Assembly: GCA_001464505.1 (NCBI GenBank)
Contig: LNEH01000114.1
Coordinates: 1 to 38,522 of the forward strand
DNA: 38,522 bases
Direction of reading: 5' to 3'
Source: Verrucomicrobia bacterium Ga0077533
GTDB taxonomy: Bacteria; Verrucomicrobiota; Verrucomicrobiia; Opitutales; Opitutaceae
The notes under the pieces are model-generated. The model saw nothing but the letters and a program-made list of their open reading frames with translations. It was not told where the DNA came from and made no database searches. The first letter of the stretch is position 1; every line of letters starts with the position of its first letter. A program made the position numbers and the translations under genes. Below are positions 1 through 6,691 of the stretch, piece by piece.

Positions 1-1667
<1,667 letters not shown>

Positions 1668-1851
1668 AGTGGCGGAACGTCCAACCAAACGACCCGCGCC
1701 ACACCGGGGCAACCAGATTTTGACCCCCTATGACACGGCAACGCCGCCCGGAGCTTTCAGCGCGGCCTCCGCCACACCTACTGGCACCGGGCAGCGATCT
1801 CCTTGTTTCGTCCCGCTGCGTGACCATGCCAGTTTGTAACGTATTATTAAA
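1668..1851. other. Intergenic gap between RT stop and aspS
   Basis: This 184-bp gap has no convincing ORF. It must hold any aspS-proximal promoter and any end signal for the retroelement transcript. The only clear structure is an AT-rich palindrome at its right edge (1832-1859), listed separately. I could not assign a -35/-10 pair with confidence. Confidence 0.5.
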
Positions 1852-1859
1852 TTACAAAC
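1832..1859. promoter_or_regulatory. AT-rich 8-bp inverted repeat at end of the DGR
   Basis: GTTTGTAA (1832-1839) and TTACAAAC (1852-1859) form a perfect 8-bp inverted repeat around a 12-nt AT-rich spacer, in otherwise strongly GC-rich DNA. The right arm contains the RT stop codon (TAA, 1852-1854 on minus). It could be a regulator-binding operator for aspS, or a weak transcription end for the retroelement. No T-tract follows on the minus strand, so a canonical intrinsic terminator is unlikely. The structure is seen directly; the function is a guess. Confidence 0.4.
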
Positions 1860-3054
1860 CGGTTTGGCCCGCTGGTGGGAGCCGGACACCGGCCGGTTCA
1901 GTCCGGCGGCGGGATAGGCCGCAGGGGTGAGCTGAGGGCGAGGCGGAAGCCGAGGTTGTCCCTGCGGTTGTCCGGATCATTCCTGTTGCGGTTGGCGGAG
2001 CGACAGTTGACGGCGTCATTCCTCCAACTGCCGCCGCGGTTGACGCGGTTGGAGCCCGATGGCCGGTGCCCGAAAACAAAATGCGCAGAACCGGCTCGCG
2101 CCGCGCCACCCGCGCGAAGGCTGACATGGCCAGCACCCGCCGTTGGGCCGCAGGTTCACCGATGCGTCCGCACGCCAGCGCTCCCTCGATCCACCGCCAG
2201 CTCCGCACCAACCGCCGACGCGAGGCGCGATTGAGCACACTGCCCGCCGGGTGAACGCGATAGCCCAGAAAATCCATGCCCTGCGCCGTGCGCTGGAGAT
2301 GCCAGTTGGATTTCACGGTGAGCCCCAGTCCGTCCCGCAGCAGTGCCTCGATCTGTTCCCTTGCCTCGATGAGCCGCTGCTTGTCGTCCGCCCACAGCGC
2401 CATGTCGTCCATGTAGCGGGCGTAGCCGGGCACACGGAGCGTGTCCTTCACGAGCCGGTCCACCGGGCCGAGATAAAAATTGGCCAGGTGCTGGCTGGTG
2501 AGCGCACCGATCGGCAGCCCCCGGCCGGGTGTCTTTTCATAAGCTCCCACAATCTGCGCCCATAGCGCCACCACCCGCCGGTCGCGAAACCTGCGCCCGA
2601 TCTCCGCCAACAGCACCGCCTGCGGGATGGAATCGAAATATTTCGCCACATCAAGTTTCAGGAACCAGCCGTGCCGCCGGGCATAGTGCTCGGCCCGGCG
2701 GAGGGCGGCATCACGGCCCTTGCCCCGGCGGCAGGCGTAACTGTCGTCAATCAGCCAACGCTCGAAGCCCGCCTCGCAAGGCCCGACCAGCGCATGATGC
2801 AGCACGCGTTCCCGGAAACACGGCGCGTGGATTCGACGCTCCTTGGGCTCCCAGATCGTGAATCCGGTGCCGTGGCCCACGGCCACGGTGCCGTGCAGGA
2901 TCTCTGTGCGCAGAGCCGCCAGTTTCGCGTCGAGGCTCGCCCGGAAGCTGACGACATCGCCCTTGTGCGCCTTGCCCCGACTCGCCCGCAAGAAGGCCTC
3001 GCGCAGATTCTCAGGGTCGGCGATCTGCTCCAGCCGGACTTTGCAGCTTTTCAT
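1852..3054 (-). CDS. DGR reverse transcriptase
   Basis: This 400-residue reverse transcriptase would make mutagenised cDNA from the template-repeat RNA. Visible motifs are a fingers region around 70-95 (KERRIHAPCFRERVLHHALV), motif A LDVAKYFDSI with catalytic Asp near 135, motif B PIGALTSQHLAN near 181-192, and motif C YARYMDDMAL with YMDD at 214-217. The IGxxxSQ form of motif B is the hallmark of DGR reverse transcriptases; group II intron and retroviral enzymes typically have QGxxxSP. A thumb-like region continues to about residue 325. From about 333 to 375 the frame is encoded by the template repeat, giving a low-complexity Thr/Ala/Ser/Pro tail that ends at 400. The ATG (3052-3054) overlaps the end of the HRDC gene by 44 bp, suggesting translational coupling. 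No maturase/X or endonuclease domain is seen, which argues against a group II intron. Confidence 0.95.
   Translation of the reverse strand: MKSCKVRLEQIADPENLREAFLRASRGKAHKGDVVSFRASLDAKLAALRTEILHGTVAVGHGTGFTIWEPKERRIHAPCFRERVLHHALVGPCEAGFERWLIDDSYACRRGKGRDAALRRAEHYARRHGWFLKLDVAKYFDSIPQAVLLAEIGRRFRDRRVVALWAQIVGAYEKTPGRGLPIGALTSQHLANFYLGPVDRLVKDTLRVPGYARYMDDMALWADDKQRLIEAREQIEALLRDGLGLTVKSNWHLQRTAQGMDFLGYRVHPAGSVLNRASRRRLVRSWRWIEGALACGRIGEPAAQRRVLAMSAFARVARREPVLRILFSGTGHRAPTASTAAAVGGMTPSTVAPPTATGMIRTTAGTTSASASPSAHPCGLSRRRTEPAGVRLPPAGQTGL
1896..1935. repeat. TR-side flank related to the VR hairpin in inverted orientation
   Basis: Reading plus strand, GTTCAGTCCGG (1896-1906) and GGGGTGAGCTGA (1924-1935) are separated by 17 bp. 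The same two blocks occur beside VR as the reverse complement of 3530-3558, with only 4 bp between them. The TR-proximal flank is therefore homologous to the VR flank but inverted. See the hairpin at 3530-3558. Confidence 0.75.
1932..2056 (-). repeat. DGR template repeat (TR)
   Basis: This 125-bp repeat matches the 3' end of the target gene (3558-3682) without gaps, at offset 1626. Twenty positions differ: 1956, 1959, 1963, 1969, 1971, 1977, 1980, 1981, 1986, 1987, 1992, 1993, 2007, 2008, 2016, 2023, 2040, 2041, 2049 and 2050. Every one is T on the plus strand of TR, which is A in coding sense; no C, G or T (coding sense) differs. TR has 27 such adenines, so 20 are substituted (11 to G, 5 to T, 4 to C). 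Read in the target frame, TR encodes the FGE-type motif SNRVNRGGSW at its start and ends in LGFRLALS, with Asn (AAY) codons at most variable sites. This is the diagnostic adenine-specific signature of mutagenic retrohoming. Confidence 0.97.
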
Positions 3055-3442
3055 AGTCGGTGACGGCGGCCAGCACGGCGGAGCCGTATTTCTCCAGCCG
3101 GGCCGGACCGATGCCGTCGATTTTCCCGAGGTCGCCGGGGGTGGCGCAGCGGGCCCTGGCCACTCCGGCCAGTTGCTCGTTGGTGAACACCGCGTAGGGC
3201 GGCAGATTTTCCTTTTCGGCCAGCGCCTTCCGCACCTCGCGCAGTTTGGAGAAGAGCGCGAACGTCTTTTCGTCGAGCACCGCCTTGTAGTCCACCTTGG
3301 CGGAGACCTCGGGCCCGCCGCCCGCCGGCGGCTGGTAAGTGGCGCAGAACGACCACACGCCCTCGTGGCACTGACGGTCGAGCGTGAGCACGCGGTGGCC
3401 CCGCAGAAAGCGGTTGAGGTCCTCGAGGAGGGCTACTTGCAT
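3011..3442 (-). CDS. HRDC-domain DGR accessory protein
   Basis: This 143-residue protein has a small N-terminal module (MQVALLEDLNRFLRGHRVL, then a segment ending WSFCATY) and a C-terminal HRDC domain at about 58-130: DEKTFALFSKLREVRKALA, then LPPYAVFTNEQLAGVARARC, then the helix-hairpin-like KIDGIGPARLEKYG. HRDC domains bind nucleic acid in RecQ helicases and RNase D. HRDC proteins are known as an alternative accessory gene in some DGRs, in place of the helical-bundle protein Avd. It lies between the target gene and the RT and overlaps the RT start by 44 bp, so co-expression is likely. No helicase or nuclease motor is attached, so a nucleic-acid chaperone or cDNA-targeting role is inferred, not shown. 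The ATG at 3440-3442 has no obvious Shine-Dalgarno sequence. Confidence 0.9.
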   Translation of the reverse strand: MQVALLEDLNRFLRGHRVLTLDRQCHEGVWSFCATYQPPAGGGPEVSAKVDYKAVLDEKTFALFSKLREVRKALAEKENLPPYAVFTNEQLAGVARARCATPGDLGKIDGIGPARLEKYGSAVLAAVTDYEKLQSPAGADRRP

Positions 3443-3481
3443 AATCGGAAATTTTGTTGCTCGCGGGTCTCTCGTCGCCTT

Positions 3482-3513
3482 GCCGGCCCATCGCTCCGCT
3501 CGGGCTGGCCGGC
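3482..3513. repeat. GC-rich inverted repeat between target gene and HRDC gene
   Basis: GCCGGCC (3482-3488) and GGCCGGC (3507-3513) form a perfect 7-bp stem with an 18-nt loop in the target-HRDC spacer. No T-tract follows on the minus strand. It may attenuate read-through from the target gene into the HRDC and RT genes, or be a chance GC-rich palindrome. Confidence 0.35.
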
Positions 3514-3529
3514 TCCTCTCGCCCCGCTC

Positions 3530-3558
3530 GTTCAGCTCACCCCACTACCGGACTGAAC
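3530..3558. repeat. Hairpin at the 3' boundary of VR
   Basis: GTTCAG (3530-3535) and CTGAAC (3553-3558) are perfect 6-bp inverted repeats around a 17-nt loop containing the target stop codon (TAG, 3545-3547 on minus). The structure directly abuts the 3' end of VR in coding sense. A hairpin or cruciform just downstream of VR is a known cis element for efficient retrohoming in the Bordetella phage DGR; the stem here is short. The interval is inverted relative to the equivalent TR flank (1896-1935). Confidence 0.6.
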
Positions 3559-4906
3559 TGAGGGCGAGGCGGAAGCCGAGGCTGCCCCCGCGGTAGCCCG
3601 GACCAACCCTGCGGCGGAGGGCGGAGCGACAGCGGACGGCGCCATTCCCCCAACTGCCGCCGCGGCGGACGCGGAAGGAGCCAGAAGGCGCGCCGGTCGG
3701 ATCGGTCACGCTGCCGCCGGGATAGTTGCCAAACAAGTCCGAGCACCATTCCCACACGTTGCCGTGCATGTCGTGCAGGCCCCAGGCATTGGCCTGCTTC
3801 TGTCCGACCGGGTGCGTCTGGTTGCCGCTGTTCGCCCCATACCACGCCATCGCGTCGAGGTTGCCCGCGTAGTCGCCAGTGGTGCCAGCCCGGCAGGCAT
3901 ACTCCCACTGCGCCTCCGTCGGCAGCGTGTAGGCAAGGTCGTCGGGAAGGCGTCCCGCCGCGCGCTCGCGCTCCGTCAGCTTCCGGCAGAACTCCATCGC
4001 GTCCTGCCAGCTCACTTGCTCTACCGGCCGGTCATCGCCTTGGAAACCGCTCGGGTTACTGCCCATCACCGCCGACCATTGCGCCTGCGTGACCTCGGTT
4101 CGGCCCAGCCAAAACCCGCGCGAAATCGTCACCTGTGTCACGGGGCGCTCGTCGCTGTCCCCGTTGGCACTGCCCATGGTGAAGGGGCCGGGCGCGATCG
4201 AAGCCAGATCAAGGCCGAGGCTCGTCACTCTGCGATCGGATCCACCGCCCATCGAGACAGCGCTGGCACTGCGGCGGGCGTGCGCCTCGGCATTCACGTC
4301 CTGAACTTTGCCTTCGAGGATATTGACGAACAGGTGGGTGCGCTGGCCGTCGGCAATCTCGAAGGTATGGTTCACGGTCTTGCCAAGGGCGGCGAAGGTG
4401 GCGGCATAGGTGCCGGTGGGCACTTTGTTGAACTCGATTTCATCCTGATCCTTTTCCTGGGCGCGGAGGCCGAGCGCATTGATCGTGATTTTGCAGGCCA
4501 CGGGAATGCTCTGGATCAGCAGGCTGCCGACCTTCTGCACGACCTGCTGCTGCTGGGCGGCGCCGCGCTGGGCGATCTCCAGTTTCGGGGTGAAGGGTTG
4601 CACCTTGAATTCCTTCACGCCACCGGCGCTGATCTCCACGTTGTTCTCCTGAGCTTGGAATCCCTCCTTCAGCACCTTGAGTTGATGCCGCCCCGGGGAA
4701 ACGCCGGCGAGGATGAGTCCGCCCTGTTCGGCGTTGGTCAGGCCCTTGAAGGCTCCGTCGAGAAACACCTGCACGCCGGGCTCGCAAGTGATCTGGATGT
4801 AGCCCGTGCCCGGCTGGGCATGGAGCGCGGTGACGCTGAACAGGCACCAAAAAGCCGCGAGGCACGGAAGCCACGCGGCGCGAAGAAAGGGAGGGAGGAA
4901 TTTCAT
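3545..4906 (-). CDS. DGR target: secreted PEGA/FGE-fold variable protein
   Basis: This 453-residue protein is the diversified product of the retroelement. The start chosen is the ATG at 4904-4906 because it gives a clean Sec signal peptide (about 1-31, ending VTALHA before Gln-Pro); an ATG 63 bp upstream would add an unlikely Pro-rich leader. Residues about 35-106 form a PEGA domain (ITCEPGVQVFLDGAFKG, then SPGRHQLKVLKEGF), and about 126-200 look like a second, more diverged PEGA-like unit. Residues about 235-450 form an FGE-sulfatase/C-type-lectin-like domain: GPFTMGSANGDSDERPV, LPTEAQWEYACRAGT, GLHDMHGNVWEWCSDLFGNY. The final part, 409-450, is the VR. Fourteen codons differ from TR: residues 411, 414, 420, 422, 425, 430, 432, 434, 435, 437, 438, 440, 441 and 442. 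There is no lipobox and no obvious anchor, so a periplasmic or surface/secreted ligand-binding role is inferred; catalysis is not expected. Confidence 0.93.
   Translation of the reverse strand: MKFLPPFLRAAWLPCLAAFWCLFSVTALHAQPGTGYIQITCEPGVQVFLDGAFKGLTNAEQGGLILAGVSPGRHQLKVLKEGFQAQENNVEISAGGVKEFKVQPFTPKLEIAQRGAAQQQQVVQKVGSLLIQSIPVACKITINALGLRAQEKDQDEIEFNKVPTGTYAATFAALGKTVNHTFEIADGQRTHLFVNILEGKVQDVNAEAHARRSASAVSMGGGSDRRVTSLGLDLASIAPGPFTMGSANGDSDERPVTQVTISRGFWLGRTEVTQAQWSAVMGSNPSGFQGDDRPVEQVSWQDAMEFCRKLTERERAAGRLPDDLAYTLPTEAQWEYACRAGTTGDYAGNLDAMAWYGANSGNQTHPVGQKQANAWGLHDMHGNVWEWCSDLFGNYPGGSVTDPTGAPSGSFRVRRGGSWGNGAVRCRSALRRRVGPGYRGGSLGFRLALSSVR
3558..3682 (-). repeat. DGR variable repeat (VR)
   Basis: This 125-bp segment encodes residues 409-450 of the target protein and is the adenine-substituted copy of TR (1932-2056). 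The last 24 bp in coding sense (3558-3581) are identical to TR, and 18 of these 24 bases are G or C. They contain a single TR-adenine position, as expected for the initiation-of-mutagenic-homing (IMH) end. Conserved scaffold residues (RGGSW, the Cys near 426, LGFRLAL) are unchanged, while 14 surface-loop codons vary. No TR-templated AAY codon can become a stop by adenine substitution, so the reading frame is protected. Confidence 0.96.
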
Positions 4907-5017
4907 GGGCGGGTAAGACGGTGGCAGTATGGAGGGTATCGGCGGGCGGTGACAATCCCTGATCGGCAAGCCAGGCGTTGCGCGGAGAGAAGCTCGTAAC
5001 CTATCGGAGATAATAGC

Positions 5018-6601
5018 TTATCGCAAAATGAGATTCTCCCCCGTCATTTCGGCCGGCTTGGGCAGGCCCATGAGCGCAAGCACGGTCGGGGCGATGTCGG
5101 CCAGGCGGCCGCCAGGGCGCAGCTTGGTTTTCCCGGCCACGAGTCCCTCGCCCACGACAAAGACCTCGACGAGATTCAGCGTGTGCGAAGTGTGCGGGCT
5201 GTTCGAGACCGGATCCCACATCTGCTCGGCATTGCCGTGGTCGGCCAGGACGACTGCCTTGCCTTTCTTGGTGGCCAGCGCGGCCAGCAACTCGCCTACT
5301 CCCTTGTCGGTCGCCTCCACGGCCTTGATGGCCGCGGGCAGCGAGCCAGTGTGGCCGACCATGTCGGGATTGGCATAGTTGACCACGATCAGGCCGTATT
5401 TGCCGGAGAGGATCGCGGCCTTGGCCGTCGCCGTCACCTCGGCCGCCGCCATCTCGGGCTTCAGGTCATAAGTCGGCACCTGGGGGCTCGGCGGGCAGGC
5501 ACGCTCCTCGCCGGGAAAGGGCTCCGCCCGGTAGTTGTTGAAGAAAAAGGTCACGTGCGGGTTCTTCTCCGTCTCGGCGCAACGGAACTGGGCGAGACCG
5601 GCCCGGCTCACGACCTCCCCGAGGATGTTCTTCAGTTTCTCCGGTTTGCCGGAAACCACCTGCACCGGCAATCCGGCTTCGTATTCGGTCATCGTGGCAT
5701 AATAAAGGTCGAGCTTCGGGCCGCGGTCGAAGCCCTTGAAACCATCCAGCACGAACGCCTTTGTGATCTCGCGCGGCCGGTCGCCGCGGTAGTTGTAGAA
5801 GAGCACGGCGTCGCCGTGGGCGATGGTCGCCACCGGCTTGCCCTCGGCGCCCACGACCGAGGTCGCGGGCACAAACTCGTCGCCGTTCTGCGTCGGACTG
5901 AGCGGATTGGCGTAATAGTTCGCCACCGCGGCCTCGGCGCTCGGCGCGGTGGTCGTGGCCTTGCGCCCGGTGAGCATGTCGTAGGCCTGCTGCACGCGCT
6001 CCCAGCGGTTGTCCCGGTCCATGGCCCAGAAGCGGCCGCACACGCTGGCAATTTTGCCCACGCCAATTTTCCGACACTCGGCCTCGACCTGCCGGATGTA
6101 ACCGCGCCCGCTTTGCGGCGGCGTGTCGCGGCCGTCGGTGAAAGCGTGGATGAACACCTCCGTCAGGCCGTCGGCCTTCGCCTGGCGCAGGATCCCATAC
6201 AGGTGCTCGAGCATGCCGTGCACGCCGGCGTCGGACACGATGCCCATCAGGTGCAGCTTCGATTTTCTTGCCTTCACCCGGTCGAGGATCGCCCGCCACA
6301 CCGGGTTGGCCGCGAGCTTCCCTTCCAGAAAAAGCTTGTTCAGGCGCACCAGCTCCTGATCCACGATCCGGCCCGCCCCGATGTTCTCGTGGCCGACCTC
6401 GCTGTTGCCCATGACCCCGTCGGGCAGGCCGACGTCGAGGCCGCTGGCTTTCACGAGGGTGCAGGGATATTTGGCATGCAGCATGTCGTCGCAGGGTTTC
6501 CTCGCCTGGACGACGGCGTTGAATTTATCCTGCTTCGGATCGGGATTCTTGCCCCACCCGTCGCGAATGACGAGCAGCACCGGCGCACGCATGGCAGTCA
6601 T
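5018..6601 (-). CDS. gpmI: 2,3-bisphosphoglycerate-independent phosphoglycerate mutase
   Basis: This cytoplasmic glycolytic enzyme interconverts 3- and 2-phosphoglycerate using two metal ions and a phosphoserine intermediate. The ATG at 6599-6601 (MTAMRAPVLLVIRDGWG) gives 527 residues, close to the family norm; an ATG three codons on is equally possible, and a further upstream ATG at 6640 would add an unconserved leader. Asp14 in IRDGWG and the nucleophile Ser67 in GVMGNSEVGH are visible, as are FTDGRDTPP, NYRGDRPREITKAF and the C-terminal metal site VVLADHGNAEQM. It lies on the same strand just upstream of the DGR target gene, with 111 bp between them; the stop TAA is at 5018-5020. The retroelement may therefore receive some read-through, but it probably has its own promoter in that gap. 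Confidence 0.96.
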   Translation of the reverse strand: MTAMRAPVLLVIRDGWGKNPDPKQDKFNAVVQARKPCDDMLHAKYPCTLVKASGLDVGLPDGVMGNSEVGHENIGAGRIVDQELVRLNKLFLEGKLAANPVWRAILDRVKARKSKLHLMGIVSDAGVHGMLEHLYGILRQAKADGLTEVFIHAFTDGRDTPPQSGRGYIRQVEAECRKIGVGKIASVCGRFWAMDRDNRWERVQQAYDMLTGRKATTTAPSAEAAVANYYANPLSPTQNGDEFVPATSVVGAEGKPVATIAHGDAVLFYNYRGDRPREITKAFVLDGFKGFDRGPKLDLYYATMTEYEAGLPVQVVSGKPEKLKNILGEVVSRAGLAQFRCAETEKNPHVTFFFNNYRAEPFPGEERACPPSPQVPTYDLKPEMAAAEVTATAKAAILSGKYGLIVVNYANPDMVGHTGSLPAAIKAVEATDKGVGELLAALATKKGKAVVLADHGNAEQMWDPVSNSPHTSHTLNLVEVFVVGEGLVAGKTKLRPGGRLADIAPTVLALMGLPKPAEMTGENLILR

Positions 6602-6691
6602 GTGGTTGTTGTCCGGTTTACCCGGAGAGCGGGCAACCAAAAACCTCCGGCCCCGGTTGACATTGCAGGCGTAACCCCGCCACTTTTCCCC

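Follow-up and report, generated by a model that had tools for sequence, protein, structure and literature searches.

The window analysed here is the whole of a 38,522-nucleotide contig (LNEH01000114.1) of Verrucomicrobia bacterium Ga0077533, a member of the Opitutaceae whose metagenome-assembled genome (G000) comprises 2.9 Mb in 226 contigs and is 82.75% complete. On its minus strand it carries a diversity-generating retroelement (DGR), in which a target gene of the FGE/C-type lectin, TvpA-like kind is followed by genes for an HRDC protein and a reverse transcriptase (RT), by the template repeat (TR) and by a structured spacer (Table 1). The initial annotation had described a complete DGR in a chromosomal, non-phage setting. 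Both parts of that description hold: RT, HRDC accessory, TR and a target with a variable repeat (VR) are all present with open frames, and the cassette sits between gpmI and aspS. It is very probably a cellular DGR with an HRDC accessory, a structured 3' spacer RNA and a TvpA-like target.

Table 1. Features of the DGR cassette and its surroundings, in window coordinates
Feature	Position	Strand	Remarks
Target gene	3545..4906	-	Signal-peptide-like N-terminus at ~4817-4906 (by eye)
PEGA/CarboxypepD_reg-like domain of target	~4607-4780	-	Pfam
FGE-sulfatase/C-type-lectin domain of target	~3563-4201	-	Pfam, E 3.5e-47
VR	3558..3682	-	3' end of target gene; TR/VR alignment
TR/VR-identical 24 nucleotides, in the position of an initiation of mutagenic homing (IMH) site	3558..3581	-	3' end of VR; TR/VR alignment
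HRDC-type accessory	3011..3442	-	Helix, beta hairpin and HRDC domain; Pfam HRDC, E 5.3e-19
DGR reverse transcriptase, conserved part	2080..3054	-	IGALTSQ, YMDD; reading frame open to 1852
TR	1932..2056	-	A short way 3' of conserved RT; TR/VR alignment
First non-A difference past TR	1931	-	C in TR, T at VR counterpart 3557
Structured spacer RNA	1715..1931	-	217 nucleotides 3' of TR; -108.2 kcal/mol, z = -5.27, 0/200 shuffles as low
Conserved RNA element	1742..1796	-	Long P1 stem, AGUA/GAA (GUA/GAA) internal loop, P2 hairpin
Extra AT-rich spacer hairpin	1829..1863	-	Not in close relative L033; RT-frame stop inside
Post-VR region	3443..3557	-	Imperfect GGA-tipped hairpin; fold z = 0.14, not significant
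gpmI (phosphoglycerate mutase), flank	5018..6640	-	
Class II tRNA synthetase taken as aspS, flank	3..1712	-	Cut by contig end; tRNA-synt_2, GAD and anticodon-binding domains

Divergence between the two repeats is confined to template adenines. Their ungapped 125-nucleotide alignment contains 20 mismatches, exactly as the initial annotation had counted them. On the coding strand, 20 of the 27 TR adenines are changed in the VR (A>G 11, A>T 5, A>C 4) and none of the 98 other positions, so that the substitution bias the annotation had proposed to test is confirmed (one-sided Fisher P = 1.2e-17). Replacing each of the 27 adenines by a random base would be expected to yield 20.25 changes by simple arithmetic. 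In the frame of the target gene all 27 adenines occupy codon position 1 (14) or 2 (13). The repeats end in an invariant, IMH-like stretch, directly after which TR and VR differ; the base just past this stretch is C on the TR side in 38 of 46 TR/VR pairs from related loci with the TR downstream of the RT (see below), several of these pairs having one TR in common. A search of the genome itself for further copies returned two matches, this TR and one VR. Because the window repeats are identical at 98 of 98 non-adenine sites, while VR-like gene ends in the same genus differ at 12 to 29 of 98, the comparison argues for recent homing, and current activity of this DGR appears likely.

The VR terminates a gene whose product has the FGE-sulfatase fold, as annotated, and whose best solved relative is variable protein 1 of Treponema denticola (PDB 2y3c, E 9.6e-37). 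The annotated outer limit of the cassette, 4906, coincides with the ATG that starts the signal-peptide-like N-terminus. Judged by eye, the protein is probably secreted, and its fold makes it a putative binding protein. DGR-type RTs are distinguished by a motif 4 with SQ together with YxDD. The RT of the window matches Pfam RVT_1 (E 1.3e-14), has both of the motifs that had been reported for it, and has been placed in trees that include the Bordetella RT and contain no non-DGR RT, which supplies the phylogenetic placement the annotation had called for. One claim does not stand. The TR had been placed inside the RT gene, and it lies beyond the conserved RT, whose frame is merely open across it.

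The accessory gene overlaps the start of the RT gene by 44 nucleotides. Its product is predicted (mean predicted local distance difference test score 90.8, predicted template modelling score 0.67) to form a helix, a beta hairpin and a RecQ/BLM-like HRDC domain. Among the 50 matches listed in a fold search with this model, the top 31 are HRDC-bearing proteins (RecQ, BLM, WRN, RNase D, Rrp6/exosome), those ranked lower are mostly chance matches (E above 0.7), and none has the Avd fold. A purpose-built iterative profile likewise found no Avd protein up to 2.5 kb from the window RT. HRDC proteins are known DGR accessories (PMC4891356 and PMC10053308, in the text available).

Related loci were drawn from three sources. 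Those of the phylum were taken at E 1e-40 out of a sample of 387 genomes, together with named contigs; the phage set consists of the 80 best among at least 542 confirmed relatives plus 5 others, near-copies among them; and loci of the Bordetella type are the best 80 of 116. One locus (L041) was dropped for want of an RT match. The 134 loci with an RT match divide into 37 with the TR downstream of the RT, 72 with the TR upstream and 25 with no TR call. In 36 of the 37 TR-downstream loci the TR begins 41-409 nucleotides past the RT match; the figure is 648 in the exception, L188, because its RT match is split.

The spacer that follows the window TR is predicted to fold unusually stably, and it contains a compact element in which a long stem (P1) and a terminal hairpin (P2) enclose a GUA/GAA internal loop. 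This loop presumably resembles the sarcin-ricin (bulged-G) motif. A descriptor consisting of stem P1, GUA, hairpin P2, GA and the returning strand P1' reaches its threshold in 19 of the 37 TR-downstream loci, in 1 of the 25 loci without a TR call and in 7 of the 72 TR-upstream loci, where dinucleotide shuffles predict 0.0, 0.0 and 0.1. Of the element alignments, that made with MAFFT from the first six copies (A2) was misaligned and left unused, and a later one (A3) misaligned L181, so A4 was made without this locus. Three covariance models were built: R1 from 17 copies, R2 from 48 matches and R3 from 15 copies, none of them from phages. In the R1 seed 92.4% of cells pair and covariation is 0.884 versus 0.251 after shuffling, a difference that arises partly by construction because the descriptor selected paired P1 stems. 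The 48 model matches give 89.1% pairing and covariation of 0.789 versus 0.236, having been fitted to the same structure.

The models also show where the matches lie. In 50 loci (509 kb, both strands), R1 yields 32 matches (E cut-off 5), of which 30 are found 61-166 nucleotides past the TR in the sense orientation and the other 2 are without a TR call but correctly positioned relative to the RT. The phage set comprises 86 loci and 688 kb (85 viral contigs and Bordetella phage L197), and in it 21 of 27 R1 matches are in place, 5 are correctly placed without a TR call and 1 lies elsewhere. Under a strict rule, R1 matches outside its training copies are in place in 16 of 17 cases in the 50 loci and in 19 of 25 in the 86. 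In the same phage set R2 has 26 of 27 matches in place, and R3, at E up to 10, has 19 of 20 just before the RT start in the sense orientation, with 1 elsewhere. Across HRDC-type and Avd-type DGRs the element lies 57-166 nucleotides past the TR. R2 finds a single match in the 2.9-Mb genome of the window and a single one in four genomes of the same genus (E up to 0.5), upstream of the Avd-type RT of G510.

When the loci are sorted by accessory, the models detect the element in 23 of 28 TR-downstream loci with HRDC only, 3 of 3 with Avd only, 2 of 3 with both and 1 of 3 with neither, and in 35 of 65 TR-upstream loci with Avd. The placement of L193 in this tally is generous, its TR call being weak (56 nucleotides). 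In L040 and L181 the element is found by the descriptor and not by a model. Two further boxes were noticed by eye: one resembling GCCAGAAG occurs soon after the TR in phage spacers such as those of L098, L122 and L123, and one resembling UGAACCGG in HRDC-type spacers such as those of the window, L033 and L165. In genome G298, contig C232 has the element at 4300, together with spacer and a TR-like 3' end recognized by eye, with no RT on its 5.6 kb; this is an apparent DGR relic, picked out by the RNA model alone.

HRDC is present in 31 of the 37 TR-downstream loci, in 4 of the 25 without a TR call and in 1 of the 72 TR-upstream loci (L159, with the order VR-TR-HRDC-RT), and Avd-like proteins occur in 65 of these 72. 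The TR-downstream loci comprise 28 with HRDC only, 3 with both accessories (L039, L040, L172), 3 with Avd only (L184, L187, L194) and 3 with neither. All six of their Avd proteins pass the Pfam bAvd cut-off, and HRDC passes in the three dual loci. Because Avd-only loci also have the TR downstream, the shift of the TR to this side of the RT is independent of HRDC.

Trees of the RTs suggest how the accessories changed. The RT lineage of the window is sampled mostly in Verrucomicrobiota and Planctomycetota, usually with TR and spacer 3' of the RT, and the closest full-length RT comes from a genome of the same family (G091). A 77-row tree, made without RT scores under 200 and without two of every three phage rows from L077-L156, places 36 of 37 TR-downstream rows and six others on one side of a 98/95 branch, with L181 opposite. 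In a 51-row tree with a midpoint root and nine hand-chosen outside rows, HRDC presence requires one change (support 100/95, and the same in every one of 200 bootstrap trees), whilst Avd presence requires two; these counts exclude four rows with neither accessory. Support is weak (88/46, 90/82) at the forks that set the order of L172 and L040. With this root, the simplest reading would be a single gain of HRDC beside Avd and then loss of Avd in two lines, one of them leading to the window. The relatives with both proteins suggest that Avd may have been replaced by this route. Within the same RT lineage, one genome (G442) holds five RT matches (L164, L168, L170, L171, L181), and two or three VRs per TR occur in L037, L164, L170, L171, L174 and L179.

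Together, these patterns make it on balance probable that DGRs of very different make-up share one folded RNA core just past the template. This core would accompany the TR whether it lies before or after the RT, and would have survived an accessory swap in which, in this lineage, HRDC was gained once beside Avd and then displaced it; the RNA would be the fixed part, and the Bordetella prototype would be a divergent form. Several points weigh against the overall account. In the seed copies, a paired P1 and the letters GUA and GA were preconditions of the descriptor itself. At the model sensitivity used the element is not universal, as the 35 of 65 Avd-type TR-upstream loci illustrate, and R2 at E 1e-3 matched only 5 of 194 phylum genomes, those of the window and G298 included, so its genome-wide sensitivity is low. 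The 19 placed R3 matches in the phage set range from E 2.8e-6 to 4.6 with near-copies among them, and for this reason position carries the case there. An unfiltered R2 scan of the Bordetella spacer did not detect the element (7.6 bits at best). Among 81 loci whose RTs are of the Bordetella type, L197 included, R2 gave 8 weak matches (E 1.4-4.7); 5 are located immediately ahead of the RT, and four of the 5 share one score.

The region after the VR also differs from what is familiar in phages. Hairpins with a GRNA loop follow 21 of 76 VRs in TR-upstream loci and none of 46 in TR-downstream loci, the window included, which counts as a further point against the overall account. Such hairpins have been described for phage DGRs (PMC3240598, in the portion available); they are a phage-DGR trait and not a strict criterion for a DGR. 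GGA-triloop hairpins with stems of at least 5 occur 6 times over 44 TR-downstream VRs versus 0.1 expected, with none in the window, and none follows a VR of the TR-upstream loci. The loci with post-VR triloops are L160, L162, L165, L174 and L188 (GGA) and L187 and L181 (GAA), and several of the loops lie near 50 nucleotides from the VR (range 10-83). A purine-rich post-VR stretch is common to the window, L033 and L037, where hairpins were sought as GGA/GAA triloops only.

The interval that holds the cassette varies within the genus. Surroundings of gpmI were compared in 14 same-genus loci (L199-L212), with genes named by eye. In 6 of these (L201, L202, L203, L206, L208, L211) gpmI and the synthetase are adjacent, with 23 to 254 bases between their BLAST match ends. 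Between the two genes lie a transposase-like gene in L199 and L200, a zeta-toxin-like ATPase in L205 and L212, and a target gene with no RT or HRDC nearby in L209 (G503). After gpmI, L210 and L207 have genes of the same two kinds and L204 has another, the synthetase lying outside the stretch examined. The gap (1712-5018 in the window) is thus an apparent small insertion hotspot in the genus, near-empty or holding a transposase-like gene, a zeta-toxin-like ATPase, a target alone or a full DGR. At E 1e-3 the RT has no match in six genomes of the genus. An RT search with alignment A1 likewise gave nothing in G503, G505, G506, G071 or G113, and the matches that it gave in G510 and G511 are all divergent.

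Four same-genus FGE genes with VR-like ends were compared with the window TR. The end of L303 (G510, C60:557184-557570) differs at 21 of 27 adenines and 12 of 98 other sites (P 1.4e-10), and that of L304 (G505) at 21 adenines and 24 other sites (P 6.8e-7). The corresponding values are 13 of 27 and 23 of 98 (P 0.013) for L302, the G503 gene at L209, and 15 of 27 and 29 of 98 (P 0.0125) for L310 (G071). No close match to the L303 target end occurs in the stretch around the DGR of G510 itself. L303 was likely once the target of a related template and has drifted since; L304 may also be a former target, with less certainty. The adenine bias, strong in L303 and L304 and slight in L302 and L310, may in part mark sites prone to vary in any gene of this kind, and in the two weak cases it may mark nothing more. 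On this account the former-target reading is held more loosely for L304 and most loosely for L302 and L310.

These remnants bear on whether the window DGR still operates. A recently silenced system, with intact sequence in a lineage where homing has ended, would suit the sporadic occurrence of DGRs in the genus, the solitary target that G503 retains at the same locus and the VR-like target end in G510. This possibility is nevertheless rather unlikely. The window repeats show no non-adenine difference, the frames are open and the RT motifs are intact, whereas the other copies have drifted at non-adenine sites. An origin of the RT in a retron, group II intron or defence system, with an unrelated repeat nearby, is scarcely conceivable. 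Group II, retron and DRT models do appear among the NCBIfam and PADLOC matches, but NCBIfam scores are all far under their cut-offs (best 88 versus 300), and both the adenine-only pattern and the tree placement oppose it.

Two other alternatives concern the template RNA. The post-TR element could be merely the transcription terminator of the RT operon, since its GC-rich stem closes the operon on the 3' side and T-runs follow several copies (L166, L175, L159). This seems improbable since the window copy has no T-run, the best-scoring model matches in three alignments keep GUA and GAA, and Avd-type loci place the element between TR and RT start, upstream of a gene that needs to be transcribed. 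The RT frame that stays open through the TR to 1852 might likewise be taken for a functional fusion in which the RT is translated through the TR and the tail so encoded matters. In seven loci the RT stop lies at -13, +14, +51, +162, +185, +202 and +311 relative to the TR start, and the frame in which the TR is read differs between loci. The open frame in the window is therefore considered incidental, and a fusion, now very improbable, was rejected.

The preferred interpretation, a cellular HRDC-type DGR with a folded template RNA, can be set beside better-known systems. In the HRDC-type DGR of T. denticola, whose target is TvpA, the accessory gene also overlaps the RT start, by 47 nucleotides versus 44 here, and the variable protein is likewise of the FGE/C-type-lectin kind. 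The two differ in that the T. denticola accessory lies between TR and RT (PMC4891356, as far as the available text goes), whereas the window TR follows the RT. In the Bordetella phage system, according to the accessible part of PMC12875486, a folded spacer recruits RT and Avd and serves to prime cDNA synthesis. Phage BPP-1 is represented here by its sister BIP-1 (L197), which has a TR/VR pair with 16 differences (11 at adenines, the rest in the 3' end), a related RT and a foldable spacer after the TR. Unlike the window, this DGR has Avd in place of HRDC, a TR upstream of the RT (same source) and a GRNA hairpin after the VR (PMC3240598, likewise in part), and lacks a detectable copy of the window element in its spacer. 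The Avd-type DGR of G510 (L319), from the same genus as the window, has an RT of the wider lineage and, by model alone, the same RNA element; it differs in having bAvd and the element upstream of the RT, with a TR recognized by eye only.

Some structure in this part of DGR RNAs has been anticipated. A trailing RNA of about 200 bases with predicted conserved structure is reported in the available portion of PMC8867640. The element is not described in the accessible parts of PMC8144416, PMC6642488 and PMC10907252, nor in any title or abstract opening in the literature searched, and no claim is made that it, or the placing of the TR after the RT, is unpublished. Rfam has no match at gathering score in six relatives. 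In window positions 1600-3700, at E up to 1, no family matches the element, and one miRNA family gives a sub-threshold match (2189-2311, E 0.23).

A working model for the cassette can be proposed. A transcript spanning the TR and the structured 3' spacer would be bound by the RT together with the HRDC protein. By analogy with Bordetella, the spacer, including its P1-GUA/GAA-P2 element, may serve as a docking site for the RT and direct priming to the TR 3' end. The resulting cDNA, carrying random bases opposite TR adenines, would then replace the VR, a step visible here through its sequence outcome. The product would be a secreted TvpA-like lectin-fold protein in whose gene 20 of the 27 template adenines are changed, every one of them in the first or second position of a codon. 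In the history of this lineage HRDC may have been gained once on the sampled tree and have replaced Avd, with the RNA element kept throughout.

The cassette itself is one more cellular DGR, ordinary in kind and probably recently active. A conserved folded RNA beside the template and a swap of accessory proteins are less ordinary than the DGR. More broadly, the analysis provides an RNA signature with which DGR template RNAs of both the HRDC and the Avd type can be searched for, and which makes the roles of spacer RNA and accessory testable outside Bordetella phage. The series from Avd through Avd plus HRDC to HRDC provides natural intermediates for probing what the accessory does. If the RNA core is indeed shared, then RNA, and not an accessory protein, would be the constant component of the DGR machinery.

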